Shown here: positions 1 to 11,317 of the stretch, one piece after another
Layout of the letters: each line of letters opens with the position of its first letter
Position numbering within the stretch: position 1 is the first letter of the stretch
Source: Kosakonia oryzae
Lineage (GTDB): Bacteria > Pseudomonadota > Gammaproteobacteria > Enterobacterales > Enterobacteriaceae
Direction of reading: 5' to 3'
Assembly (NCBI RefSeq): GCF_001658025.2
Contig: NZ_CP014007.2
Span: forward strand, 682,001-746,000
Length of the DNA: 64,000 nucleotides
Made by a program: the position numbers and the translations under genes
Notes under the pieces: model-generated
Seen by the model: the letters and a program-made list of their open reading frames with translations, nothing else
Databases searched by the model: none
Told to the model about the DNA's origin: nothing

Positions 1-295
1 CATTGCTGTGGGTTTTAAACACGCCGACCGGCTTGCCGGATTGCACCAGCAGCGTTTCGTCATCGTTAAGCTGCTTCAGCGCTTCCACCATTTTGTCAAA
101 GCACTCCCAGTTACGCGCTGCCCGTCCAATCCCCCCGTAAACCACCAGCTCTTTCGGGTTTTCCGCGACTTCGGGATCAAGGTTGTTCATCAGCATGCGC
201 AGCGGCGCTTCGGTCAGCCAGCTTTTCGCATTCAATGTCGTGCCGCGCGGCGCTCTGATCTCAACATCACGATAACGGGAAAATTCACTACTCAT
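1..295 (-). CDS. hutU: Urocanate hydratase, N-terminal part (cut by window edge)
   Basis: The visible 98 residues begin [18 protein letters not shown] and include [13 protein letters not shown], which I recognise as the N-terminus of urocanate hydratase. This NAD-dependent cytosolic enzyme converts urocanate to imidazolonepropionate, step two of histidine catabolism. The ATG at 293-295 is preceded by a good ribosome binding site (AGAAGG, read on the minus strand around 303-308). The gene runs out of the window, so the NAD-binding and catalytic parts cannot be checked. It is transcribed away from the importer/lyase operon, with a shared upstream region carrying HutC-type palindromes. Confidence 0.93.
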
Positions 296-346
296 GCGGT
301 TTACCTTCTTTGTTTGATAGCAGGATAAATGCTTACTGACGTTGTC

Positions 347-360
347 TTGTATATACATGA
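347..360. promoter_or_regulatory. HutC-type operator upstream of hutU
   Basis: TTGTATATACATGA contains the perfect palindrome TGTATATACA (348-357). The same ten bases recur at 9909-9918, between hutC and hutF. The form TGTA-N2-TACA agrees with what I recall of HutC sites in pseudomonads. It lies about 55 bases upstream of the hutU start codon. The assignment as a HutC site is inference from the repeat and from the presence of hutC in the same locus. Confidence 0.65.
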
Positions 361-682
361 TAAGCACATATGGTGCCACTTTGATCGATTTATTTATTAT
401 CTATGTAAAACAGCAACTTGTAATTTACTGTTTTCCGGGAGGCGCTGAGGGAAGGGATTTTAGCGTGCTTTACTGCACTATTATTGTGCTTAACGGCAGA
501 AAAATGATCATTTTAAGTGCATTAATGCGCTGTTTTATGGCGAGAGAACAGGGCGATAAAGCAGAGGTAATCCGCCTGGTTAGACTGATTTTATTAACGA
601 GATATTATTATGTTATTGTTTTTAATGGTTTTTAATTTATCGATATATGTTGCGATTACGTTATGGCACATGGCTTGCAAGT

Positions 683-761: not shown

Positions 762-1859
762 ATGATTACTTTCAACAATGTGACCAAGCATTACGACGAC
801 GGTACCGTCGTGGTCGATGGCCTGAACTTTGTCGCGCCAGGAGGCAAAATTACCGTGCTGGTAGGGCCGTCGGGCTGCGGCAAAACCACCTCATTACGCA
901 TGATCAACCGGCTGGTCGAACCCTCTTCCGGCACGATTTTGCTCAATGGTGAATCCACCGCGCAGATGGATGTGGTGCAGTTGCGTCGGCGCATTGGTTA
1001 CGTGATCCAGAATGCCGGGTTGTTCCCGCATAAAACCATCATCGACAACATCGCCACCACCGCCATCCTTAATGGCGCAGCGAAAAGCAAAGCCAGGGCC
1101 AGAGCGGCGGAATTACTGGAAGTGGTCGGTCTGGCGCCGCAATTGGCGAAACGCTATCCGTGGCAGCTCTCCGGCGGGCAACAGCAGCGCGTCGGTGTGG
1201 CGCGCGCGCTGGCCGCCGATCCGGAATTTATGCTGATGGACGAACCCTTCAGCGCAGTCGATCCTGTCGTGCGTGAACAGTTGCAGGAAGAGTTTCTGCG
1301 CATTCAGAAAGAGGTCAGCAAGACCATCATTATGGTCACCCACGATATTGATGAAGCGATGAAACTGGGTGATTGCGTTGCGGTGCTGAAGCCTGGCGGC
1401 AAGCTGGCGCAACTGGCGACGCCGGGCGAATTGCTGAATGCGCCGCAGAGCGAATTTGTTGCCGATTTCATTGGCCGCGACCGCGGTTATCGCAAACTCA
1501 GTTTCCACACCTCCGCACCACTGACGGCATTGCAGGCGGAACCGGCCATCGAAATGGGCGCAACCCTTGCGCAGGCGCGTGGTATCAGCGCGCAACGTTG
1601 GCTACTGGTGACGCAGCAGGGCAAAGCCTGCGGCTGGTTTGATACGCATCAGCAGGTAACGGTGATTGCGCCGGAAAACGTCAATCTCGGCGCGACGTTT
1701 TCTCCGCAGGGCGGCACGCTGCGCCAGTTGCTGGATTCGGCGCTCAGCTCTCCCTGCCATCGCGCCGTGGTGGTTGATGAACAGCTTGCCCCGCTGGGAT
1801 CGCTGGCGCTGGAAAATGTGCTGGATGCCTGCAAATCGCTGACCCAGGAGGCGCTATGA
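762..1859 (+). CDS. ABC transporter ATPase, quaternary-amine (OpuCA/ProV-like) family
   Basis: This 365-residue ATPase powers a betaine-type importer. Walker A GPSGCGKTT is at 35-43, the signature LSGGQQQR at 136-143, Walker B LMDEPFSAVDP around 158-168 and the switch histidine at 194 (VTHD). About 110 residues follow the nucleotide-binding domain and look like a degenerate CBS-type regulatory tail, as in OpuCA, ProV and EgtV. It is the first gene of an eight-gene operon, and its stop overlaps the next start (ATGA). The family handles glycine betaine, choline, carnitine, ergothioneine, and histidine in the HutV subgroup. Substrate cannot be read from the ATPase. Confidence 0.88.
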   Translation: MITFNNVTKHYDDGTVVVDGLNFVAPGGKITVLVGPSGCGKTTSLRMINRLVEPSSGTILLNGESTAQMDVVQLRRRIGYVIQNAGLFPHKTIIDNIATTAILNGAAKSKARARAAELLEVVGLAPQLAKRYPWQLSGGQQQRVGVARALAADPEFMLMDEPFSAVDPVVREQLQEEFLRIQKEVSKTIIMVTHDIDEAMKLGDCVAVLKPGGKLAQLATPGELLNAPQSEFVADFIGRDRGYRKLSFHTSAPLTALQAEPAIEMGATLAQARGISAQRWLLVTQQGKACGWFDTHQQVTVIAPENVNLGATFSPQGGTLRQLLDSALSSPCHRAVVVDEQLAPLGSLALENVLDACKSLTQEAL

Positions 1860-2500
1860 GATTTGACTGGCTGTGGGGGCAAAGCGACAGGATCCTCAAC
1901 CTGCTGCTCTGGCACTGCTATTTGTCGATTACGCCAATCCTGATCGGCCTGCTGCTGGCGATCCCGGTGGGCTGGGCGGTGAACAACCTGCCGAAAGTGA
2001 AAGGGATCGTGCTGAACCTGTTCGGCCTGTTGTACACCATTCCTTCGCTGGCGCTGTTCGTGCTGCTGCCGCCGCTGCTGAATACGCAGATTCTCGACCC
2101 GATCAACGTGGTCGTTGCGTTGACCATTTACAGCTTCGCGCTGCTGGTTAGAACCGTGTGCGACGGGCTGGATTCCGTTGCCGAAGATACCCGCCAGTCC
2201 GCTTTCGCGCTGGGGTACAAGCCGCTACAGCAATTTTTGCAGATCGACCTGCCGCTTGCCGTGCCGGTGATCGGCTCCGGGCTGCGCGTGGCGGTGGTTT
2301 CTAACGTCAGCATTGTGTCGGTGGCCGCGCTGATTGGCGCGCCGCAGTTAGGTTCGCTGTTTACCCAGGGTTTTCAGCTTCAGTTCCTCACCCCGATTAT
2401 CGCCGGGATTGTGCTGTGCATCGCGCTGGCTTTCATTCTGGATTGCCTGGTGGTGGCGATAACCCGTTCGTTAAGCCGCTGGCAACCGCAAAGGGGATAA
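1856..2500 (+). CDS. ABC transporter permease 1 (OpuCB/YehW-like)
   Basis: This 214-residue inner-membrane protein has about five to six hydrophobic segments. An EAA-type coupling loop near residues 115-135 (AFALGYKPLQQFLQIDLP) contacts the ATPase. Length and layout match the permeases of OpuC/Yeh-type quaternary-amine importers. The start codon overlaps the ATPase stop, implying translational coupling. A second, different permease follows 3 bases downstream, so the membrane part is probably a heterodimer. That differs from HutXWV histidine importers, which have one permease. Confidence 0.87.
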   Translation: MRFDWLWGQSDRILNLLLWHCYLSITPILIGLLLAIPVGWAVNNLPKVKGIVLNLFGLLYTIPSLALFVLLPPLLNTQILDPINVVVALTIYSFALLVRTVCDGLDSVAEDTRQSAFALGYKPLQQFLQIDLPLAVPVIGSGLRVAVVSNVSIVSVAALIGAPQLGSLFTQGFQLQFLTPIIAGIVLCIALAFILDCLVVAITRSLSRWQPQRG

Positions 2501-2503
2501 CTG

Positions 2504-3184
2504 ATGAGTGAATGGTTTCTCGATCTCAGCCACTGGTACGGCGACGACGGCATTGTGCCGCTGCTGTTGCAGCATATCGGTTACAGCGCGGCGGCGCTGG
2601 CGATTGCCGTTGCCATTGCTTTTCCGGTCGGCTGCTATACCGGCCATACCGGTAAAGGGGAGGCGCTGCTGATTGGCACCACCAACGCCCTGCGTTCGTT
2701 GCCCTCTTTTGGCCTGATTATTTTGCTGGTGATCCTGCTGGCAGGCTATTTCGAATCGGATATGGCCTTTGTTTTGCCCTGCATCATCGTGCTGGTGGTG
2801 CTGGCACTGCCGCCAGTGGCGCTGGGCGTACATGCGGGTATCCGTTCTGTCGATCCCAGCGTGCATGACGCGGCAAAAGGGATTGGCCTGACGCCGCTTC
2901 AGGTGCTGTTGCAGGTCGAGTTGCCCTGCGCAATGCCGCTGATCCTCTCCGGGATCCGCAGCGCCGCACTGCAAATTGTCTCCACCGCGACCATTGCGGC
3001 ATACGTTTCACTCGGCGGCCTGGGGCGATTGATTATCGACGGGCGTGCCGCCAACGACTTTGCGCAGATGACCGCCGGGGCCATCCTCGTCGCGCTACTG
3101 GCATTGATCATTGATCTCTTTTTTTCGCTTTCAGGGAAAGTCGTGGTTTCACCGGGCATCACCCGGAAAACCAAAAACCAGTGA
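2504..3184 (+). CDS. ABC transporter permease 2 (OpuCD/YehY-like)
   Basis: This 226-residue inner-membrane permease has an EAA loop near 122-141 (DAAKGIGLTPLQVLLQVELP). It pairs with the preceding permease and the ATPase. The first 20 residues carry a short acidic periplasmic-type leader before the first hydrophobic segment, as in OpuC-type permeases. It is followed after 33 bases by the binding-protein gene, which has its own ribosome binding site (AGAAGG). Confidence 0.87.
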   Translation: MSEWFLDLSHWYGDDGIVPLLLQHIGYSAAALAIAVAIAFPVGCYTGHTGKGEALLIGTTNALRSLPSFGLIILLVILLAGYFESDMAFVLPCIIVLVVLALPPVALGVHAGIRSVDPSVHDAAKGIGLTPLQVLLQVELPCAMPLILSGIRSAALQIVSTATIAAYVSLGGLGRLIIDGRAANDFAQMTAGAILVALLALIIDLFFSLSGKVVVSPGITRKTKNQ

Positions 3185-3217
3185 TGTTGGGTCCTTTAAT
3201 TACAGAAGGTTAATAAG

Positions 3218-4099
3218 ATGATTAAGAAACGCTATTTAACGTTGTTCAGTGCCGCGCTGCTGTCTGTCGCTTCTTCTGTCTGGGCTGCTGATGCCGGCCA
3301 GAAAGTGATTATTGGTTCGGCGGATTTTCCGGAAAACCAGCTGCTGGCGACCATCTACGCCGGGGCGCTGGAAGCGCAAAACATTCCCGTCGAGAAAAAA
3401 CTCAATATCGGTAGCCGTGAAGTCTATATTCCGGCGCTGCTGGACGGTTCCATCACCGTGATCCCGGAGTACAGCGGCGCGCTGCTGAGCTATCTGGATG
3501 CGAAAAATGAAGCGCACAGCTCGGAAGATGTGGCGAAAGCGCTGGCCGCTAAGCTGCCGGAAAAAGTGAAAATGCTCAACACTTCCACGGCGCAGAACAG
3601 CGATGTACTGGCGGTCACGAAGAAAACGGCCGACAAATACAAACTGAAAACCATCGACGATCTGAAACCTATCGCCGGGCAGTTAGTGCTTGGCGGCCCG
3701 GCGGAGTGGAAAACCCGTCATGAAGGCGTTCCCGGCCTGCGTGACGTTTACGGCCTGAATTTCAAAACCTTCAAAGTGCTGGATGTCGCTGGCCCGCTGA
3801 CGCTGACGGCGCTGAAAAACAACCAGATTCAGGTCGCTGACCTGACTTCCACAACGCCGGAGATCAAAAAAGATCACCTGGTCGCGCTGGAAGATCCGAA
3901 GCATCTGTTTGCCGCGCAGAACATCGTGCCGATTGTCGCCAGCAGCACGCTGAACCCGACCATTGAAAGCACGCTGAACAAAATCTCCGCGCAGCTCACC
4001 ACCGAAGATCTGATTTCCATGAATGAACAGCTTGCTGAGTTCGCCAGCATTGATGATGTGGCGCACCAGTGGCTGGTTAAACACCAACTGAGCAAGTAA
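3218..4099 (+). CDS. Periplasmic betaine-type binding protein (OpuCC/OsmF-like)
   Basis: This 293-residue protein has a Sec signal peptide (residues 1-23, likely cleaved after VWA). The mature part shows the OpuAC-type fold pattern IIGSADFPEN, then GSREVYIPALLDGS and IPEYSGALL. Tyrosines at 47, 70, 85 and 92 are candidates for the aromatic cage that holds trimethylammonium groups in this family. It would deliver substrate to the two permeases. The neighbouring histidase-fold lyase suggests an imidazole-bearing betaine such as hercynine or ergothioneine. Histidine itself (HutX role) or glycine betaine are the alternatives. Confidence 0.86.
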   Translation: MIKKRYLTLFSAALLSVASSVWAADAGQKVIIGSADFPENQLLATIYAGALEAQNIPVEKKLNIGSREVYIPALLDGSITVIPEYSGALLSYLDAKNEAHSSEDVAKALAAKLPEKVKMLNTSTAQNSDVLAVTKKTADKYKLKTIDDLKPIAGQLVLGGPAEWKTRHEGVPGLRDVYGLNFKTFKVLDVAGPLTLTALKNNQIQVADLTSTTPEIKKDHLVALEDPKHLFAAQNIVPIVASSTLNPTIESTLNKISAQLTTEDLISMNEQLAEFASIDDVAHQWLVKHQLSK

Positions 4100-4113
4100 G
4101 GAACGGCTGCGAG

Positions 4114-5673
4114 ATGACAACAACAACCCGTTCTTCCACGCCGCAGGCGGATGCGGTCACCTTAGGCACTGCTGCCACTACCATTGATGAACTGGTACGC
4201 ATTGCCGATGGCGCGCCGGTTGTTCTGGCTGATGATGCGCTGGCGCAAATGGATAAGGTCAGCGGCTACATTCACAACGCGATTGCTGAAGGGAAGGTGA
4301 TTTATGGTCTGACGACCGGCGTGGGAGACCTGGTAACTGAGCGTCTCTCTGCGGATCAAATTGCCAGTGTGCAGCTCAATATGCTGCGCAGCCACGCCTG
4401 CGGGATGGGGCCGGATCTGTCGGTGCGGGAAGTGCGGGCGATGATGGCGGTGATGCTGAAATCGCTGCTGCAGGGCTACAGCGGCGTCAGCGCTGAACTG
4501 GCACAGCGGATGTGTCTGATGCTGAACCGGCAGGTGACGCCGTGGTCGCCTGCCAGCGGTTCCGTGGGGTATCTGATTGCTACCGCACATATCGGCTTAT
4601 CGCTGTTTGGCGAAGGGCAGTGTTGGTATCAGGGCGAGTTGTTGCCCTCCGCCGAAGCGCTGGCGAAAGCGGGCATTGCGCCGCGCATTCCCGGCCCGCG
4701 CGAAGGGCACGCGCTGATCAGCGGTACCTACGAAATTACCGCACTGGCCTGTCTGGCGGTGCGGGATTTCGAACAGTTGCTGCCAATCGCGGATATGGCT
4801 GGCGGCATGTGTCTCGAAGCGTTGAAAGGCAACACCCGCGGCTATGACGCGCGTCTGCACGCTCTGCGTCCTCATGACGGGCAACAAGAAACGGCGCAGA
4901 TTTTGCGCCGCTTACTGCACGGCAGCGAGATCCTTCAGCGTTACCGCGACCACCGGGTACAAGATGCGCTCAGCTTGCGCTGCATCCCGCAAATCCATGG
5001 CGCAGTGCGCGATCAACTGGCGCATTGCCGTCATATCGTCACCACTGAACTCAATTCGGTAACCGACAACCCGGTATTTTTAATTGAAGACGACGCGCTG
5101 GTGATTTTGCCAGGCGGCAACGGTCACGGTGCGCCGCTGGCGCTGGCGCTCGATGCGCTGGCGGTGGCTATCGCGCAACTGAGTACCGCGTCGCAAGCGC
5201 GTTCTGACCGTATCACTAACGTGCATCTCAGCGGTTTACCGGCTTTTCTGGTCGGCAAAAGCGGCGCCAATTCCGGGATGATGATCCCGCCGTATGTCGC
5301 CGCCGCACTCGCCGGGGATAACCGCAGCCTGGCGGCGCCCGCCAGCGTACATACGGTTTCCACCTGTGCCGGGCAGGAAGACCATATCAGCATGGGCGTT
5401 TCCTCGGCGCGAAAAGCGATGCAGGCGGTGGCAAACGCAGTAGATATCGTGGCTATTGAACTGCTGTGCGCCTGTCAGGCGATTGAATTCCACCGCCCGC
5501 TACGCGCCTCGGTGGGTACAGAACTGACGCTGGCGAAGGTGCGCCAGCAAGTCGCGTTTCGGGAAACCGACACGCCGCTGTACACGGATATGCATGCCGT
5601 CCGGGATCTGATTGCGGATGGCGAACTGAGCCGCCAGCTTACTTTACTGATTGAGGAGGGGGCTGATGAGTGA
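4114..5673 (+). CDS. Histidase-fold lyase with non-canonical active site; candidate trimethylamine lyase (ergothionase/hercynase-like)
   Basis: This 519-residue protein clearly belongs to the histidine/phenylalanine ammonia-lyase superfamily: YGLTTGVG at 64-71, SHACG at 93-97, GQEDH at 420-424. Aligned by eye to Pseudomonas and Klebsiella HutH, the MIO-forming segment GSVG-ASG-DLAPLAH reads GSVG-YLIATAH. The ASG triad is missing there, and an ASG (147-149) sits just before SVG instead. Other cofactor residues also change: Asn195 becomes Ser203, Tyr280 becomes Leu286, Phe329 becomes Gly337. A lysine (382) replaces the asparagine in the FLVxNGGVNSG segment. Tyr64, Arg289 and Glu422 remain. Ergothionase is a known member of this fold that eliminates trimethylamine by acid/base catalysis without MIO. 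The operon's betaine-type importer fits that. Ordinary histidase activity seems unlikely but is not excluded. Confidence 0.8.
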   Translation: MTTTTRSSTPQADAVTLGTAATTIDELVRIADGAPVVLADDALAQMDKVSGYIHNAIAEGKVIYGLTTGVGDLVTERLSADQIASVQLNMLRSHACGMGPDLSVREVRAMMAVMLKSLLQGYSGVSAELAQRMCLMLNRQVTPWSPASGSVGYLIATAHIGLSLFGEGQCWYQGELLPSAEALAKAGIAPRIPGPREGHALISGTYEITALACLAVRDFEQLLPIADMAGGMCLEALKGNTRGYDARLHALRPHDGQQETAQILRRLLHGSEILQRYRDHRVQDALSLRCIPQIHGAVRDQLAHCRHIVTTELNSVTDNPVFLIEDDALVILPGGNGHGAPLALALDALAVAIAQLSTASQARSDRITNVHLSGLPAFLVGKSGANSGMMIPPYVAAALAGDNRSLAAPASVHTVSTCAGQEDHISMGVSSARKAMQAVANAVDIVAIELLCACQAIEFHRPLRASVGTELTLAKVRQQVAFRETDTPLYTDMHAVRDLIADGELSRQLTLLIEEGADE

Positions 5674-6862
5674 AGCTATTAAGCCGCTCAGTGGCGTACG
5701 GGTACTCGATCTGTCGCGCGTGTTGGCGGGTCCGTGGTGTGCCTCGCTGCTTAACGATCTTGGCGCTGAAGTTATCAAGATCGAGATGCCAGGCAGCGGC
5801 GACGATTCCCGCGCTTTTACGCCGCATATCAACGGCGAGAGCAGCTACTTTATGCAGCTCAACCACGGCAAAAAAAGCGTCACGCTGGATCTGAAAAGCC
5901 CGCAGGGCTTAGCGATCCTCAAAGATCTGGTCGCCTGTTCGGACGTGCTGGTGGAGAACTTTCGCCCCGGCGTAACCCAGCGGCTGGGGATTGATTATGC
6001 GACGCTACAGGCCATCAATCCGCGGCTGGTTTACGTCAGCATCTCCGGCTTTGGTCAGCAAGGCTCGCTGGCGCATAAAGCGGCTTACGACCATATCATC
6101 CAGGCGATTGGCGGCATTATGCAGGTCACCGGCTGGGCGAATGGCGAACCCACGCGCGTTGGCGATGCGATTGGTGATGTGGTCGCCGGGCTGTATGGCA
6201 GTTGGGCGGTACTGGCGGCGCTGCTTCAGCGTGGCATTACCGACAAGGGCCAGCATCTGGATGTCTCGATGCTCGATACCATGGTGACGCTGCAAATGGT
6301 GTCGTTAACCCAGTGGATCGGCGGCCAGCCCAGCGCCGGAAGGCTTGGTAATGCGCACCCGATCAGCGCGCCGATGGACAGCTACCGGGCGCAGGATGGA
6401 CATATCGTTATTGCTGTCGCCAACGACAAACTCTTCCGCCAGCTTGCCGGTGCAATGGGAAATCCCGCGCTGGTGGACGATCCTCGCTTTGCCAGCGATC
6501 CGCAGCGGCTGGCGCATCAACAGCCCTTGCGCGAAGAGATTGAACGCTGGCTCGCAGATAAAAGCGTCAGCGACGCGCAGGCACTGCTGGATAGCGCTGG
6601 CGTTCCGGCCTCGCCGGTACTGCGCCTCGATCAGATCCTCGGCAGCGATTACGCCCACCAACGCGAGCTGGTGAAACAGATCCAGCACCCGCGTGCAGGC
6701 GCGATCTCTATTGTGCCGCAGCCGGTGAAAATGAGCGGTGCGCCGGGCGAACCGGCGCTGATCCCGCCGGTGCTGGGGGAACATACGCTCATGGTATTGC
6801 GTGAAGTGCTGGGTATGGATGAGGCAACGCTCGTGCAGCTGCAAACGCAGGGCGTGATTTAG
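5666..6862 (+). CDS. Class III (CaiB/BaiF family) CoA-transferase
   Basis: This 398-residue protein moves CoA between carboxylic acids. The N-terminal LDLSRVLAGPWCASLL and the segment GDAIGDVVAGLYGS are family hallmarks. Asp171 aligns with the catalytic aspartate (Asp169) of formyl-CoA transferase. I chose ATG 5666 over an in-frame TTG at 5651 because GGAGGGGG sits at the right distance. The start overlaps the lyase stop by eight bases, so the two are probably translationally coupled. In this operon the likely acid to be activated is the acrylate product of the lyase. A carnitine-type acid is an alternative, since CaiB belongs to the same family. Confidence 0.9.
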   Translation: MSEAIKPLSGVRVLDLSRVLAGPWCASLLNDLGAEVIKIEMPGSGDDSRAFTPHINGESSYFMQLNHGKKSVTLDLKSPQGLAILKDLVACSDVLVENFRPGVTQRLGIDYATLQAINPRLVYVSISGFGQQGSLAHKAAYDHIIQAIGGIMQVTGWANGEPTRVGDAIGDVVAGLYGSWAVLAALLQRGITDKGQHLDVSMLDTMVTLQMVSLTQWIGGQPSAGRLGNAHPISAPMDSYRAQDGHIVIAVANDKLFRQLAGAMGNPALVDDPRFASDPQRLAHQQPLREEIERWLADKSVSDAQALLDSAGVPASPVLRLDQILGSDYAHQRELVKQIQHPRAGAISIVPQPVKMSGAPGEPALIPPVLGEHTLMVLREVLGMDEATLVQLQTQGVI

Positions 6863-6873
6863 GGGAGAAAAAC

Positions 6874-7770
6874 ATGTCGCGAATTAATAAAGTGGCGGTG
6901 ATTGGTGCCGGAACCATGGGCGCACGTATTGCTGTCGTCATGGCCCGCGCGGGTTATCGCGTCAGTCTCTATTCCCGCTCGCAGGAAACGCTGGATAAAG
7001 CTCAGGCGATCGTTGAATCGCGGGTCGCTCAGGCCGATGTGCAGTACAGCACGTCGCTGGAAAGCTGCCTGGCAGGCGCGGATATGGTGTCGGAAAACGT
7101 GGCGGAAGAGGTGGCGCTCAAACAACATCTGTTCAGCCTTATTGAGCCACAGGTTTCTGCAGACTGCTTGCTGACGACCAATACTTCCAGTGTCTCCATC
7201 ACGCAACTGGCATCGGTGCTCAGTAACCCGCAGCGGCTGATTGGTATGCACTGGTTTAACCCGGCGGATACCATGCCGATGATTGAAATTGTGCGCGGCG
7301 AGAAAACCGCCGACGACGTTTGCCAGCGCGTTCGCGATTTGTGTGCACAGCTTGATAAAGAGACCATCACCGTGAATCAGGACATTCCGGGCTTTATTAT
7401 CAACCGCCTGCAATACGCCATGCTGCGCGAGGCGCTCTATCTGGTGAGCGCCGGGATTGGCTCGATTGAGGATGTTGACCGTGCAGTGCAGCGTACGCTG
7501 GCACCGCGCTGGGCGGCGATGGGGCCAATGAAACTGATGGATTTCGCCGGGCTGGATACGGTCGAGAAAGTCGCCGGGATATTGCTGCCCGCGCTGGATA
7601 ACAGCACGACGCTGCCATCCTGGCTGCTGGAGAAAGTCGCGACGAAACAACTGGGGGTGAAAAGCGGGGAAGGCTTTTATTGCTGGGATGGGCAAAGCGC
7701 GGCGGCGGCAATGCGTCACCGTGAAGCGATCGTCACCAGCCTGACGGCGAGGAGCGCGGACGATGAGTGA
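6874..7770 (+). CDS. 3-hydroxyacyl-CoA dehydrogenase family protein
   Basis: This 298-residue NAD-dependent dehydrogenase is about the length of stand-alone 3-hydroxybutyryl-CoA dehydrogenases. The Rossmann motif GAGTMG is at 11-16, TNTSS at 102-106 and GMHWFNP around 124-130. His126 and Glu138 form the expected catalytic pair. The C-terminal helical domain contains GVKSGEGFYCW, typical of the family. It would oxidise a 3-hydroxyacyl-CoA to the 3-oxo form. L-carnitine dehydrogenase is a relative, so a free hydroxy-acid substrate is possible. The gene overlaps the following hydratase by eight bases. Confidence 0.9.
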   Translation: MSRINKVAVIGAGTMGARIAVVMARAGYRVSLYSRSQETLDKAQAIVESRVAQADVQYSTSLESCLAGADMVSENVAEEVALKQHLFSLIEPQVSADCLLTTNTSSVSITQLASVLSNPQRLIGMHWFNPADTMPMIEIVRGEKTADDVCQRVRDLCAQLDKETITVNQDIPGFIINRLQYAMLREALYLVSAGIGSIEDVDRAVQRTLAPRWAAMGPMKLMDFAGLDTVEKVAGILLPALDNSTTLPSWLLEKVATKQLGVKSGEGFYCWDGQSAAAAMRHREAIVTSLTARSADDE

Positions 7771-8530
7771 TATTTTATGTAGCCATGAAGATGCCGTTGC
7801 CGTTGTTACGCTGAACCGCCCGCAGAAATATAACGCTCTGACCGCAGAGATGCTGGATGCGCTGGTCACTACGCTGCTGCAGCTTGAGCAGGATCCGCAG
7901 GTACGTGCCATTGTGCTGTTGGGCGGCCCGAAAGCCTTCTCCGCCGGGGCAGATACCGGCACGCTGGCGTCGGCTTCCGCCATCACTTTATGGCGCAGCG
8001 GTTTTAGCGAGAAATGGGATCGCATTGCCGCCATTGAAAAACCAGTGATTGCTGCTGTTTCAGGTTATGCGCTCGGCGGTGGGCTGGAGCTGGCGCTGCT
8101 GTGCGACATCATTATTGCCGACACCACGGCGCAGTTTGGGTTACCGGAAAGCCATATCGGCATTATTCCGGGCGCCGGAGGAACGCAGCGGCTGGTGCGT
8201 GCGGTAGGGAAATCACTGGCGATGGAGATGCTGCTTGGCGCCAGACGCATCACCGGCGAAGAGGCGCGTCAGGCGGGGCTGATTAGCCAGTTGGTTCAGC
8301 CTGATGAACTGGCAACGCAGGCGCTAAACATTGCGCGCCAAATCGCCAAAGCCGCGCCGCTGGCGGCCGCGATGATCAAAAAAGCGGTGCTGGCCAGCTA
8401 CGAAATGCCATTAAGTGCGGGAGTGGCTTATGAGCGAGCGCTCTCGGCGCTGATTGCCGATAGTGAAGATCGCGCCGCCGGGCTGGCGGCGTTTCAGAAC
8501 AGGCAGACGCCGCAGTTTAGCGGGCGTTAA
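7763..8530 (+). CDS. Enoyl-CoA hydratase (crotonase family)
   Basis: This 255-residue crotonase has the oxyanion-hole segments FSAGAD (59-64) and GGGLELAL (105-112). Glu109 and Glu129 align with the two catalytic glutamates of enoyl-CoA hydratase, so hydratase rather than isomerase or ligase chemistry is expected. It would add water across the acrylyl-CoA made by the CoA-transferase. The dehydrogenase upstream would then oxidise the product. No thiolase follows. The gene ends the operon and meets hutD tail to tail with a four-base overlap. CaiD-type crotonobetainyl-CoA hydratase is an alternative identity. Confidence 0.9.
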   Translation: MSDILCSHEDAVAVVTLNRPQKYNALTAEMLDALVTTLLQLEQDPQVRAIVLLGGPKAFSAGADTGTLASASAITLWRSGFSEKWDRIAAIEKPVIAAVSGYALGGGLELALLCDIIIADTTAQFGLPESHIGIIPGAGGTQRLVRAVGKSLAMEMLLGARRITGEEARQAGLISQLVQPDELATQALNIARQIAKAAPLAAAMIKKAVLASYEMPLSAGVAYERALSALIADSEDRAAGLAAFQNRQTPQFSGR

Positions 8531-9081
8531 CGGGATGTCAGCGTCACGCAGGCAAAAAGCGTGTCGCTGCCTGCGTGGACGGCAACCGTTGCCGGGTTAT
8601 CGATTAGCAGGCTGTCGTAATGTTGCAGGGTATGGCGTTCACCCGCAACGGTGACATCAAGCAACTTTCCGGCATTGAACAGCAGCATCGTTCCCTGTTG
8701 ATGTTGCCATGCGCCATCGCGCAGCCAGCGCACCGTTGCATGAGTGGTTTCACGGCGATAAATCACGTTGAAATCGAGTAACGGCCCGCCGACAACCTCG
8801 CAAAACACTTCGCTGTCGCCGTTAAAATCCGTCGCCTGAAACGGTGGAATTAACGCGCTGCGCTGCTCATCAACCGTCAGAAACATACCGTCACCTTCCA
8901 GCACGCTGATATTTCGCAGGTAACCGGAGAAACGTGAGAATGCGCCATCTTCGCGGATCGTCGCGACCGATATGCGCCAGGCATACTGTTCGCTGGCGGG
9001 AAAACGGCACACTTCGCGGGTGACGCCCTGGCCATTTTTCCAGCGCATCTCAGCGTAGCCGCTATAAGGCAGCAGTCTCAT
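8527..9081 (-). CDS. hutD: HutD/Ves family protein
   Basis: This 184-residue beta-barrel (cupin-like) protein starts MRLLPYSGYAEMRWKNGQGVT, where the MxWKNGxGxT segment is characteristic of HutD/Ves. HutD is conserved in hut loci. In Pseudomonas it is proposed to limit hut expression, perhaps by binding formiminoglutamate or urocanate-related metabolites. The biochemical role is not settled. It overlaps hutC by four bases (ATGA), so the two form one leftward transcript, and it converges on the enoyl-CoA hydratase. Confidence 0.9.
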   Translation of the reverse strand: MRLLPYSGYAEMRWKNGQGVTREVCRFPASEQYAWRISVATIREDGAFSRFSGYLRNISVLEGDGMFLTVDEQRSALIPPFQATDFNGDSEVFCEVVGGPLLDFNVIYRRETTHATVRWLRDGAWQHQQGTMLLFNAGKLLDVTVAGERHTLQHYDSLLIDNPATVAVHAGSDTLFACVTLTSR

Positions 9082-9891: not shown

Positions 9892-9919
9892 ATGTATATA
9901 TATAAACATGTATATACAT
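9892..9919. promoter_or_regulatory. Double HutC-type operator between hutC and hutF
   Basis: The site holds TGTATATATA at 9893-9902 and the perfect palindrome TGTATATACA at 9909-9918, spaced 16 bases centre to centre. The second copy is identical to that at 348-357 upstream of hutU. The site lies in the 110-base gap between divergent hutC and hutF and could control both. The HutC assignment is inferred from position and repetition. Confidence 0.65.
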
Positions 9920-9949
9920 CTTCTATAACGGCAGGCGGTGAGGGGATAT

Positions 9950-11317
9950 ATGACGGTATATTTCGCGGCAAAAGCATTGTTGCCGCAGGGCTGGGCGGAG
10001 AATGTCCGCATTACGGTTTCCGCACAGGGCATCATCACCGCGCTGGAAAGCGGTAGTCAGCCAGACGACCACACAATTTGCCTGGACGGTTTCCTGGTGC
10101 CGGGCATGCCAAACCTGCATTCGCACGCCTTTCAGCGTGCCATGGCCGGGCTGACCGAAGTGGTGGGCGATCCGGCAGACAGCTTCTGGACATGGCGCGA
10201 TTTGATGTACCGGCTGGTGGATAAAATCACCCCCGAGCAACTGGAAACCATCGCCAGCTATCTGTACATCGAAATGCTGAAGGCCGGTTATACCTCGGTG
10301 GCCGAGTTTCACTATTTGCACCACGATCGCGGCGGAAAACCTTATGCGCAGCCTGCAGAGCTGGCGTTGCGTATTTCGCAAGCGGCGAAAACGGCGGGCA
10401 TTGGCCTGACGTTACTGCCGGTGCTTTACAGCTTCGCCGGTTTTGGCGGGCAGCCAGCGACCGCCGGGCAGAGCCGCTTTATTCATGATACGGAAGGCTA
10501 TCTGGCGCTGCATGAGGCGCTGACATCGCAGCTTGCGGCTGAGCCGATGCAGCGTACCGGGCTGTGCTTCCACTCGCTACGGGCCGTTACGCCGGAGCAG
10601 ATGCAGCATGTGCTCAACGCCTGCCCGCAACCGCAGCCGATGCATATTCATATTGCCGAGCAGCAAAAAGAGGTCGATGACTGCGTGGCCTGGTCCGGGC
10701 TGCGTCCGGTGGAGTGGCTTTACCAGCATATGCCGGTGGATGAGCAGTGGTGCCTGATTCACGCCACGCATCTTACGCCGCAGGAAACCCAACAGATTGC
10801 CGCTTCCGGCGCAGTGGCGGGCTTGTGCCTGACCACCGAAGCCAATCTTGGTGACGGTATTTTCCCGGGGCCGGACTATCTTGCGCAGCAGGGGCGCTGG
10901 GGGATTGGCTCCGACAGCCATATCAGCGTCAGCGTCAGCGAGGATTTGCGCTGGTTTGAGTACGGGCAACGGTTAAACAAACAGCGGCGCAACTTGCTTC
11001 ATCTGCCGGATGAACCTTATATCGGCAATGTGCTGTATCAGGGCGCATTGCAGGGCGGACGCCGCGCGCTGGGGCAGGCGATTGGTCAACTGGCGACCGG
11101 CCATCGTGCGGATATGCTGTTGCTCGACAGCCGCGATCCCTTCCTTGCTGCCGCAGGCGATCGTGAACGTCTGAATCGCTGGATTTTCGCCTGTTCGACG
11201 AACCCGATAAAAAGGGTGATGACCGGCGGACGCTGGGTGATTGAAGAGGGGCGTCACGCGCAGGAAGAGCAGGTGACAGCCGCGTTTATCAAGGTCATGC
11301 AGCAACTGGTGGCGTAA
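9950..11317 (+). CDS. hutF: Formimidoylglutamate deiminase
   Basis: This 455-residue amidohydrolase matches HutF, which deiminates N-formimidoyl-glutamate to N-formylglutamate plus ammonia in the five-step histidine route. Likely metal ligands are His57 and His59 (PNLHSHAFQRA), His234 (HIHIAEQ) and Asp322 (GIGSDSH). The segment EDLRWFEYGQRL after the aspartate is typical of HutF rather than of other deaminases. I chose ATG 9950, with AGGGGA 5-6 bases upstream, over an in-frame GTG at 9938. An N-formylglutamate deformylase (HutG) would be needed next and is not in the window. Confidence 0.92.
   Translation: MTVYFAAKALLPQGWAENVRITVSAQGIITALESGSQPDDHTICLDGFLVPGMPNLHSHAFQRAMAGLTEVVGDPADSFWTWRDLMYRLVDKITPEQLETIASYLYIEMLKAGYTSVAEFHYLHHDRGGKPYAQPAELALRISQAAKTAGIGLTLLPVLYSFAGFGGQPATAGQSRFIHDTEGYLALHEALTSQLAAEPMQRTGLCFHSLRAVTPEQMQHVLNACPQPQPMHIHIAEQQKEVDDCVAWSGLRPVEWLYQHMPVDEQWCLIHATHLTPQETQQIAASGAVAGLCLTTEANLGDGIFPGPDYLAQQGRWGIGSDSHISVSVSEDLRWFEYGQRLNKQRRNLLHLPDEPYIGNVLYQGALQGGRRALGQAIGQLATGHRADMLLLDSRDPFLAAAGDRERLNRWIFACSTNPIKRVMTGGRWVIEEGRHAQEEQVTAAFIKVMQQLVA

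Follow-up and report, generated by a model that had tools for sequence, protein, structure and literature searches.

An importer-lyase operon inside a hut cluster

The 64-kb stretch of Kosakonia oryzae DNA analysed here (the window, contig NZ_CP014007.2) is a piece of a 5.42 Mb genome assembled as a single contig. At its left end lies an operon for an ATP-binding cassette (ABC) importer, a histidase-fold lyase and three coenzyme A (CoA) enzymes, set among genes for histidine utilization (hut). Eight plus-strand open reading frames (ORFs) at 762-8530 were confirmed; they overlap or are separated by gaps of at most 33 bp, a tight operon. Their products belong to the families ABC_tran, BPD_transp_1 (two), OpuAC, Lyase_aromatic, CoA_transf_3, 3HCDH and ECH_1, all above Pfam cut-offs. 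Thus the operon of importer, lyase and three CoA genes that an earlier reading of the letters alone (the sequence-only reading) had claimed is present with every gene and family. The hut setting is stronger than that reading had supposed, as hutG, hutI and hutU adjoin the left edge: the operon sits within a complete hut cluster, with hutG-hutI-hutU at its left in the opposite direction (hutG and hutI directly left of the window) and hutD-hutC-hutF at its right. The hutG, hutI, hutU and hutF products each exceed their NCBIfam equivalog cut-offs. The features are as follows.

1 to 379, minus strand: hutU, urocanate hydratase, its 3' part left of the window; TIGR01228 1019.9 bits against a cut-off of 375
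348 to 357, no strand given: putative HutC operator TGTATATACA, a consensus match that precedes the likely hutU start by about 53 bp
682 to 693, no strand given: putative HutC operator TTGTACATACAA, 68 bp upstream of the first start codon of the importer operon
762 to 1859, plus strand: ABC importer ATPase (ProV/OpuC type); ABC_tran; TIGR01186 290 bits, below the cut-off of 326.6
1856 to 2500, plus strand: ABC importer permease A; BPD_transp_1
2504 to 3184, plus strand: ABC importer permease B; BPD_transp_1
3218 to 4099, plus strand: substrate-binding protein of the OpuAC family, in which EgtU determinants and most aromatic-cage residues are not conserved
4114 to 5673, plus strand: histidase-fold lyase (type A) lacking 4-methylideneimidazole-5-one (MIO), proposed hercynine trimethylamine-lyase; Lyase_aromatic, MIO deletion, clade
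5666 to 6862, plus strand: family III CoA-transferase; CoA_transf_3
6874 to 7770, plus strand: 3-hydroxyacyl-CoA dehydrogenase; 3HCDH
7763 to 8530, plus strand: enoyl-CoA hydratase; ECH_1
8527 to 9081, minus strand: hutD; Pfam HutD 159 bits
9078 to 9839, minus strand: hutC, GntR-family repressor; TIGR02018 297.8 bits against a cut-off of 220
9909 to 9918, no strand given: putative HutC operator TGTATATACA, between hutC and hutF
9938 to 11317, plus strand: hutF, formimidoylglutamate deiminase; TIGR02022 677 bits against a cut-off of 413

The likelier start of hutU is Met29 of the longest ORF, at window position 295 (gene L033:4620-6380). For the CoA-transferase the most likely start codon is ATG 5666, so that the gene overlaps the stop codon of the lyase; the program's ORF list has TTG 5651.

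The hutU, hutI, hutG, hutF and hutC genes stand together in this cluster, and a MIO-type HutH is absent from it. An intact HutH with the MIO tripeptide alanine-serine-glycine (ASG) is encoded at C1:1588774, about 0.9 Mb away, and is the only other Lyase_aromatic protein of the genome. Searching the 18 kb around this orphan by tblastn with 15 proteins (the 14 of the cluster and HutH) revealed no other hut gene, and the four neighbours scanned against NCBIfam gave no hut protein. The orphan (L053) is flanked by an alanine-transaminase-like gene, with a type VI secretion gene about 2 kb further. The cluster's hutU is the only urocanase gene in the genome. It encodes a classic HutU (1020 bits on the hutU model) that falls below both the S-methyl-thiourocanate hydratase model (716 against a cut-off of 880) and the thiourocanate hydratase model (694 against 930). 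No thiourocanate-type hydratase was found in the genome; the desulfurase, ErtD and ErtE were not searched genome-wide.

In Pseudomonas, HutC binds TGTA-N2-TACA and urocanate releases it, according to PMC12977541. The window holds three such sites where 0.30 are expected, a number reached in 1 of 100 shuffles, and these putative operators lie before hutU, ahead of the importer operon, and in the gap that separates hutC from hutF. HutC control of the operon, as the sequence-only reading had it, is thus supported by three predicted consensus sites at the right promoters and by a hutC above its cut-off. The cluster resembles the Pseudomonas HutC regulon, as far as that source describes it, in its HutC member and its TGTA-N2-TACA sites; it differs in having a HutC-type operator also before a betaine-type importer-lyase operon.

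A lyase family without the MIO tripeptide

The lyase had been described from the letters as having a broken MIO site. That description holds, and the change is more exactly a clean deletion of ASG: the GSVG-ASG-DLAPLAH of HutH reads GSVG---YLIATAH in the window lyase, and the residue after the tripeptide has changed from D to Y. The deleted loop recurs in 33 other distinct proteins that form one clade with the window lyase, so it is not a sequencing error. Lyases with the loop GSVGYLIAT are here called type A, and those with GSVGYL(T/S)HMAH, about 42% identical to the window lyase, type B.

The window lyase is 37% identical to the genome's own HutH and scores below both HutH model cut-offs (507.4 against 539.15, and 519 against 524). 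Among nine MIO-less lyases scanned, three (L044, L048 and L077) pass the cut-off of the PRK09367 histidine ammonia-lyase subfamily and none passes that of TIGR01225 (hutH). Scanned against NCBIfam, these nine and one HutH matched no trimethylamine-lyase model; the ten match only histidine, tyrosine and phenylalanine lyase and aminomutase models (E 1e-70 or better). The best match in a named genome is from Kosakonia sacchari (98%). An intact type A gene occurs in 10 of 295 genomes of the family, at 70-100% identity to the query, and one more genome has a broken copy.

We collected 94 distinct lyase rows: 34 of type A, 23 with other GSVGY loops, 33 with ASG and 4 with other loops. A tree was built from 61 rows, namely all type A rows (34), 11 type B rows that include two distant Acetobacter sequences, 11 hand-picked ASG proteins, four others and the Treponema denticola ergothionase 6s7j, which was aligned by way of the Pseudomonas gingeri ergothionase. 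Type A (100/100) and type B (100/99) were each well separated and appeared as sisters (98/91), and 6s7j and the P. gingeri protein formed a separate clade outside the two. A single MIO-less clade of type A, type B and ergothionase was rejected (p-AU 0.0014), subject to the long branches of L119, L120, L121, L123 and 6s7j. In the PDB the P. gingeri protein matches 6s7j best (275 bits), and its locus (L120) also has a thiourocanate hydratase (1026 against a cut-off of 930) and a thiohydantoin desulfurase (606 against 440); by this match and these neighbours it marks a true ergothionase locus. Judged by loop and tree, type A lyases are a MIO-less family distinct from ergothionase.

Active-site positions are given in the numbering of the Pseudomonas putida histidine ammonia-lyase (HAL), with residue roles that we assume. 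H83, R283 and E414, which we take to be the imidazole and carboxylate residues of HAL, are all kept in the window lyase. Throughout the type A rows (34 of 34) Y53, H83, Q277, R283 and E414 are kept, ASG is missing, Y280 is replaced by L and F329 by G; N195 is S in 28 rows and G in six. All 11 HutH rows retain ASG, N195, Y280 and F329. The two ergothionase rows have L at 280, S at 195, F329 and an EGD loop. The 19 hut-linked type A lyases, which have S or G at 195, and the 13 CoA-linked or importer-only ones share every residue at the pocket positions apart from the six cases of G at 195. Two type A rows from Ert-type loci (below) differ: M382 is S, and residue 384, P in the other type A lyases, is S in place of A.

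Ergothionase (T. denticola, PDB 6s7j/6s7q; Burkholderia sp. HME13) is thus like the window lyase in its MIO-less histidase fold and in Y53, H83, R283, E414, N195S and Y280L. It differs in its clade, in an EGD loop where the window lyase has a three-residue deletion with Y, in keeping F329, and in its gene neighbours, a thiourocanate hydratase and a thiohydantoin desulfurase in P. gingeri against the classic hut genes of the window. HutH shares with the window lyase the fold, the imidazole and carboxylate residues and the position in a hut cluster, and differs in having ASG.

Other MIO-less lyases were seen alongside. Type B loci (L014-L032, L044-L052, L125) carry lyases with the loop GSVGYLTHMAH, often among hut genes: L044 combines one with a HisJQMP-like importer beside a MIO-type HutH and hutC/D/F/I/G, and in L048 a choline/ProV-type ATPase precedes the lyase. 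Acetobacter okinawensis has a second, type-B-like MIO-less lyase (L081:19778-21298) in a locus with type A, CoA genes, hutI, hutF, hutG and hutC. Histidase-fold proteins of Rhizobium tropici and Acidisoma (L119:7642-9225, L121:6398-7912, L123:2209-3993) have no normal ASG loop (e.g. GSIGCADIG, GSIGAGDLG), and the L119 protein adjoins ErtD (783 bits) and ErtE (633 bits).

Substrate and product of the lyase

The sequence-only reading had proposed a search for the same gene set in other genomes, and lyases with CoA genes, hut genes or both were indeed found. Scanning 84,980 species genomes with two peptide patterns gave 33 loci, one of which (L087) has an ASG loop; the same patterns gave no relative in viral contigs. 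By tblastn we tabulated 35 loci. Of these, 32 are the type A loci from the scan, several of them drawn from records that also stand among the family genomes; the other three are the window region, G004 and a Klebsiella plasmid. Eight are hut-linked with intact CoA genes and 11 are hut-linked without them, including L082 with its many broken genes. Seven have CoA genes without linked hut enzyme genes, one of them (L040) with a MIO-type HutH about 11 kb away, and three (L081, L084, L086) have CoA and some hut genes otherwise arranged. Importer and lyase without an orthologous CoA set are found in three (L071, L074, L078); two are Ert-type and one (L079) is too short. In L082, from Enterobacter sp. 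EA-1 (G028, CP025776.1), the locus genes are in pieces and the genome is 49% complete, probably through assembly errors. NCS1-type permeases, possibly urocanate or histidine transporters, occur in two hut loci, between hutI and hutU (L072:3169-4431) and beside a type B lyase (L049:9483-10910).

The Ert-type pair comes from Pantoea (L080, L085). Its operons (NCBIfam NF058531, NF058532, NF058538, NF058540) have an importer of the same type and a type A lyase 56-59% identical to that of the window. They also encode an S-methyl thiourocanate hydratase, at 972 and 977 bits over a cut-off of 880, and an S-methyl thiohydantoin desulfurase, at 568 and 566 bits over one of 450; L080, the one of the two that was scanned for them, has ErtD (700, cut-off 600) and ErtE (527, cut-off 520). 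These operons thus use a dedicated hydratase, desulfurase and amidohydrolases, and the window uses HutU, HutI, HutF and HutG and has CoA genes. Because the Ert-type loci would otherwise have no trimethylamine-lyase for their first step, type A is most simply read as a family of histidine-betaine trimethylamine-lyases. The elimination of trimethylamine that the sequence-only reading had suggested thus gains support from these relatives, and N195S and Y280L, common with ergothionase, point the same way.

Three observations suggest a urocanate-type product. First, the window lyase is paired with a classic HutU, of which the hut-linked loci carry close homologues, at 86-99% identity. Second, a urocanase was found in 30 of 30 genomes searched, and in three of them, Pectobacterium betavasculorum, Rosenbergiella epipactidis and Tatumella morbirosei (drafts whose completeness is not given), the type A lyase is the sole PF00221 protein and accompanies the single, in-locus urocanase of a full hut cluster. 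The hut pathway of these three would have no other visible entry than the type A lyase. Third, the 15 genomes of the genus, with one urocanase each, fall into two sets: in eight, hutU lies 5-6 kb from a type A gene, and in the seven without type A it stands beside a HutH-like gene in six and on a separate contig in one. The ASG loop was confirmed in four of the HutH-like genes from the genomes without type A, one of which (G268) has a classic locus of hutI, hutC, hutU and HutH. The eight type A genomes also keep a HutH-like protein. In three of them (L056, L159, L160) an intact HutH adjoins a hutU relic lacking residues ~87-464, and the working hutU sits in the lyase cluster; neither in the window's genome nor in G329 was such a relic found next to the orphan HutH. 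By its gene arrangement, the genus shows directly a natural swap of HutH-hutU for type A lyase-hutU.

HutC sites accompany the relatives too. TTGTACATACAA, which occurs once in the 5.4 Mb genome, stands before the importer at all 11 hut-linked loci whose promoters were checked. Among seven other loci its core TGTACATACA is present in three (L069, L070, L073) and was not found in L075, L076, L077 and L078, in stretches of unequal length, that of L078 being very short. Four of the seven CoA loci without linked hut enzyme genes have their own HutC-type regulators above the cut-off of 220: L069 (293), L073 (286), L076 (254, with a second at 217, below it) and L077 (255 and 224). The importer-only L078 has one too (236), and the tblastn locus table gave none at L070, L075 and L040.

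We propose, with a probability of about 0.6, that this is a hut cluster in which a MIO-less trimethylamine-lyase replaces histidine ammonia-lyase, hercynine being converted to urocanate and trimethylamine and the urocanate passing into the Hut pathway under HutC. The OpuC-type importer would take up a histidine betaine, most likely hercynine (trimethylhistidine). The lyase would remove the beta proton with Tyr64, presumably the counterpart of HAL Tyr53, as base; MIO would not be needed, as trimethylamine is already a good leaving group. Urocanate would relieve HutC and be carried by HutU, HutI, HutF and HutG to glutamate. In a side branch, CoA-transferase, hydratase and dehydrogenase could take urocanyl-CoA to the 3-hydroxy and 3-oxo acyl-CoA. 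We infer the identity of the substrate, the release of trimethylamine and each reaction of the CoA branch. No report of a route from hercynine to urocanate appeared in titles and abstracts of the open-licence literature, outside which the papers behind the Ert models lie.

The binding protein calls for caution. A betaine-type importer beside a MIO-less lyase, claimed by the sequence-only reading, is supported by the genes, and yet most aromatics of the cage are gone. We compared it with EgtUC, using the determinants and cage residues given in PMC9732360. The two belong to one family of substrate-binding proteins, and N339, E375 and R379 are kept. K242 is replaced by A, position 243 is D, T274 is S, and the EgtU-specific G244 and F293 are F and Y; as PMC9732360 reports, G244F alone costs EgtUC about 100-fold in affinity. 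Because the thione contacts are replaced, ergothioneine is argued against as ligand. Ergothioneine as main substrate, which the sequence-only reading had placed beside hercynine, therefore loses ground: the urocanase is by its model scores a classic HutU, a second urocanase is missing and the EgtU determinants are replaced.

Several points weigh against hercynine as well. Of the four cage aromatics one is left (Y at 293), as Y341 is D, Y419 is T and Y443 is Q, so that the cage of the quaternary-amine subcluster F-III (F293 or Y, Y341, Y419, Y443) is not found in this protein. Over 23 binding-protein rows, Y341 and Y443 are replaced in every one; at position 419, 21 rows have T or L, and the two Ert-linked rows have F together with V341. 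The lost quaternary-amine cage tells against a simple betaine site; F37, Y85 and W164 are invariant in nine rows, and at a guess this other aromatic set might replace it. A search with the single sequence gave EgtUC as the closest binding protein in the PDB (about 100 bits), and the family profile matched Lmo1422/BilEB (4z7e) best, followed by acetylcholine and nicotine sensors and then EgtUC. Lmo1422 binds ergothioneine, according to PMC9732360, and given this best match the ligand may be ergothioneine-like. By sequence the window lyase is nearer to HutH, with 350 bits to its structures against 194 bits to ergothionase, no characterised enzyme of the type A clade was found in the literature search, and hercynine as most likely parent comes from the betaine reading and gene context only. 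Finally, the CoA genes would be superfluous for urocanate where HutU is present, which hints at a second product.

That last point leads to a dual substrate, in which importer and lyase would also take ergothioneine or its S-methyl form, with urocanate from hercynine passing through Hut and the CoA genes serving thiourocanate, which to our knowledge HutU does not hydrate. CoA genes exclusive to type A loci, Ert-linked type A relatives that handle C2-sulfur compounds, and ergothioneine binders as the closest PDB matches by single sequence (EgtUC) and by profile (Lmo1422/BilEB) would all suit it. We consider it unlikely, as K242, G244, T274 and F293 of EgtU are replaced, hut- and CoA-linked lyases are alike at M382/P384 where the Ert-type differs, and R. 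tropici and P. gingeri carry an Ert-type or ergothionase locus apart from their type A lyase.

Polar and acidic residues in place of the cage would suit a primary or secondary amine, and the lyase might then act, independently of MIO, on histidine or an N-substituted histidine, no quaternary betaine being involved and the importer carrying histidine or a conjugate. The kept histidine-recognition residues, the three genomes with type A as sole PF00221 protein of a full hut set, and the three of nine MIO-less lyases passing PRK09367 agree with this. We know of no mechanism for ammonia loss from histidine without MIO, and the cavity left by MIO, F329 and Y280 would suit a bulkier leaving group. 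The Pantoea relatives lie in betaine operons, and all eight genomes of the genus that have type A retain a HutH-like protein as well. A histidine lyase therefore seems a little less likely still than the dual substrate.

The CoA genes and the spread of the family

Orthologues of the three-gene module were counted in the 295 family genomes, with at most eight candidates scored per genome. The dehydrogenase (E <=1e-70, 59-100% identity) occurs in exactly seven, always beside the lyase, and the CoA-transferase (at least 69% identity, next best 50%) in the same seven; neither was found in the other type A genomes of the family (G188, G219, G141 and the broken G028). Because its orthologues occur only beside the lyase, the module is, by this distribution, dedicated to it, as the sequence-only reading had also supposed. 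The catalytic residues that we would expect are invariant in the 12 sequences compared: an Asp for the transferase, a His and a Glu for the dehydrogenase and a pair of Glu for the hydratase. Against two close loci the CoA genes have dN/dS ratios of 0.06-0.16, purifying selection, a rough estimate with dS above 1.

That reading had also mentioned carnitine-type metabolism, by relatives of CaiB, CaiD and carnitine dehydrogenase; the lyase would then be a bystander in this or an unrelated betaine pathway. The importer type and the set of CoA-transferase, hydratase and dehydrogenase would fit. However, scores stay far under the curated NCBIfam cut-offs (L-carnitine CoA-transferase 126 against 413; carnitine dehydrogenases 119 against 592 and 104 against 414), the CoA genes stand only beside type A lyases in the family, and the linked regulator is HutC. 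We hold this explanation to be very improbable.

Intact CoA genes are absent from 11 of the 19 hut-linked loci. On the tree, for which 33 rows were scored by hand with Acetobacter counted as not hut-linked, their presence changes at least nine times and hut linkage once; an independent-pairs test of the two found one pair only. Relics remain in Kosakonia quasisacchari (34 transferase residues joined to ~106 decayed hydratase residues), in Kosakonia arachidis (a hydratase tail matching at 10 of 10 residues, where controls reached 6 at most) and in L159, near kin whose losses may not be independent. The other seven hut-only loci examined had no relic above the shuffled control; a transferase relic in Pectobacterium betavasculorum was plausible by eye and did not exceed that control. 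Repeated loss at hut-linked loci fits two routes for one product, the second of which, with predicted chemistry, would be an optional one formed by the CoA genes.

Such a branch would load urocanate from hercynine onto CoA, hydrate and oxidize it in a manner like beta-oxidation, and serve as an alternative to Hut, a proposal that we put forward tentatively. CoA loci without hut enzyme genes occur in Rouxiella, Rahnella, Rhizobium and Burkholderia, several with their own HutC-type regulators. No thiolase was recognised in the loci examined, where not every neighbour was scanned. Alternatively, the genes may serve a different, second product, for example thiourocanate. Of the CoA-dependent fate that the sequence-only reading had proposed, the module itself is real, but the main fate of the product is probably ordinary Hut, given the 11 loci of 19 without CoA genes and the relics. 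No open-licence paper was found that joins ergothioneine, urocanate and CoA-transferase.

The family is also carried on plasmids. With the importer-lyase DNA of a Klebsiella plasmid as query, 211 of 72,556 plasmid records matched, 164 of them over at least 80% of the query, and 191 of the 211 were from Klebsiella. The same DNA was found in 2 of 5,426 E. coli genomes, both times on plasmids. One plasmid stretch viewed in full (L088, NZ_CP029739.1) has a hut cluster with a MIO-less lyase and importer, without CoA genes. The Klebsiella plasmid records inspected name such lyases 'aromatic amino acid ammonia-lyase' or 'histidine ammonia-lyase', and if hercynine is the substrate these database names would need correcting.

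Should our proposal be true, hercynine, the sulfur-free partner of ergothioneine, would have its own catabolic entry, yielding urocanate and trimethylamine without MIO. This would be a new entry into the classic histidine-breakdown pathway, served by a MIO-less histidase-fold lyase family separate from ergothionase, and it would account for the hut clusters of genomes that lack a MIO-type HutH altogether. The three CoA genes, exclusive to these loci, are a candidate module for a fate of urocanate, or of an analogue, that has not been recognised before, and the lyase may be an added source of trimethylamine in Enterobacterales.

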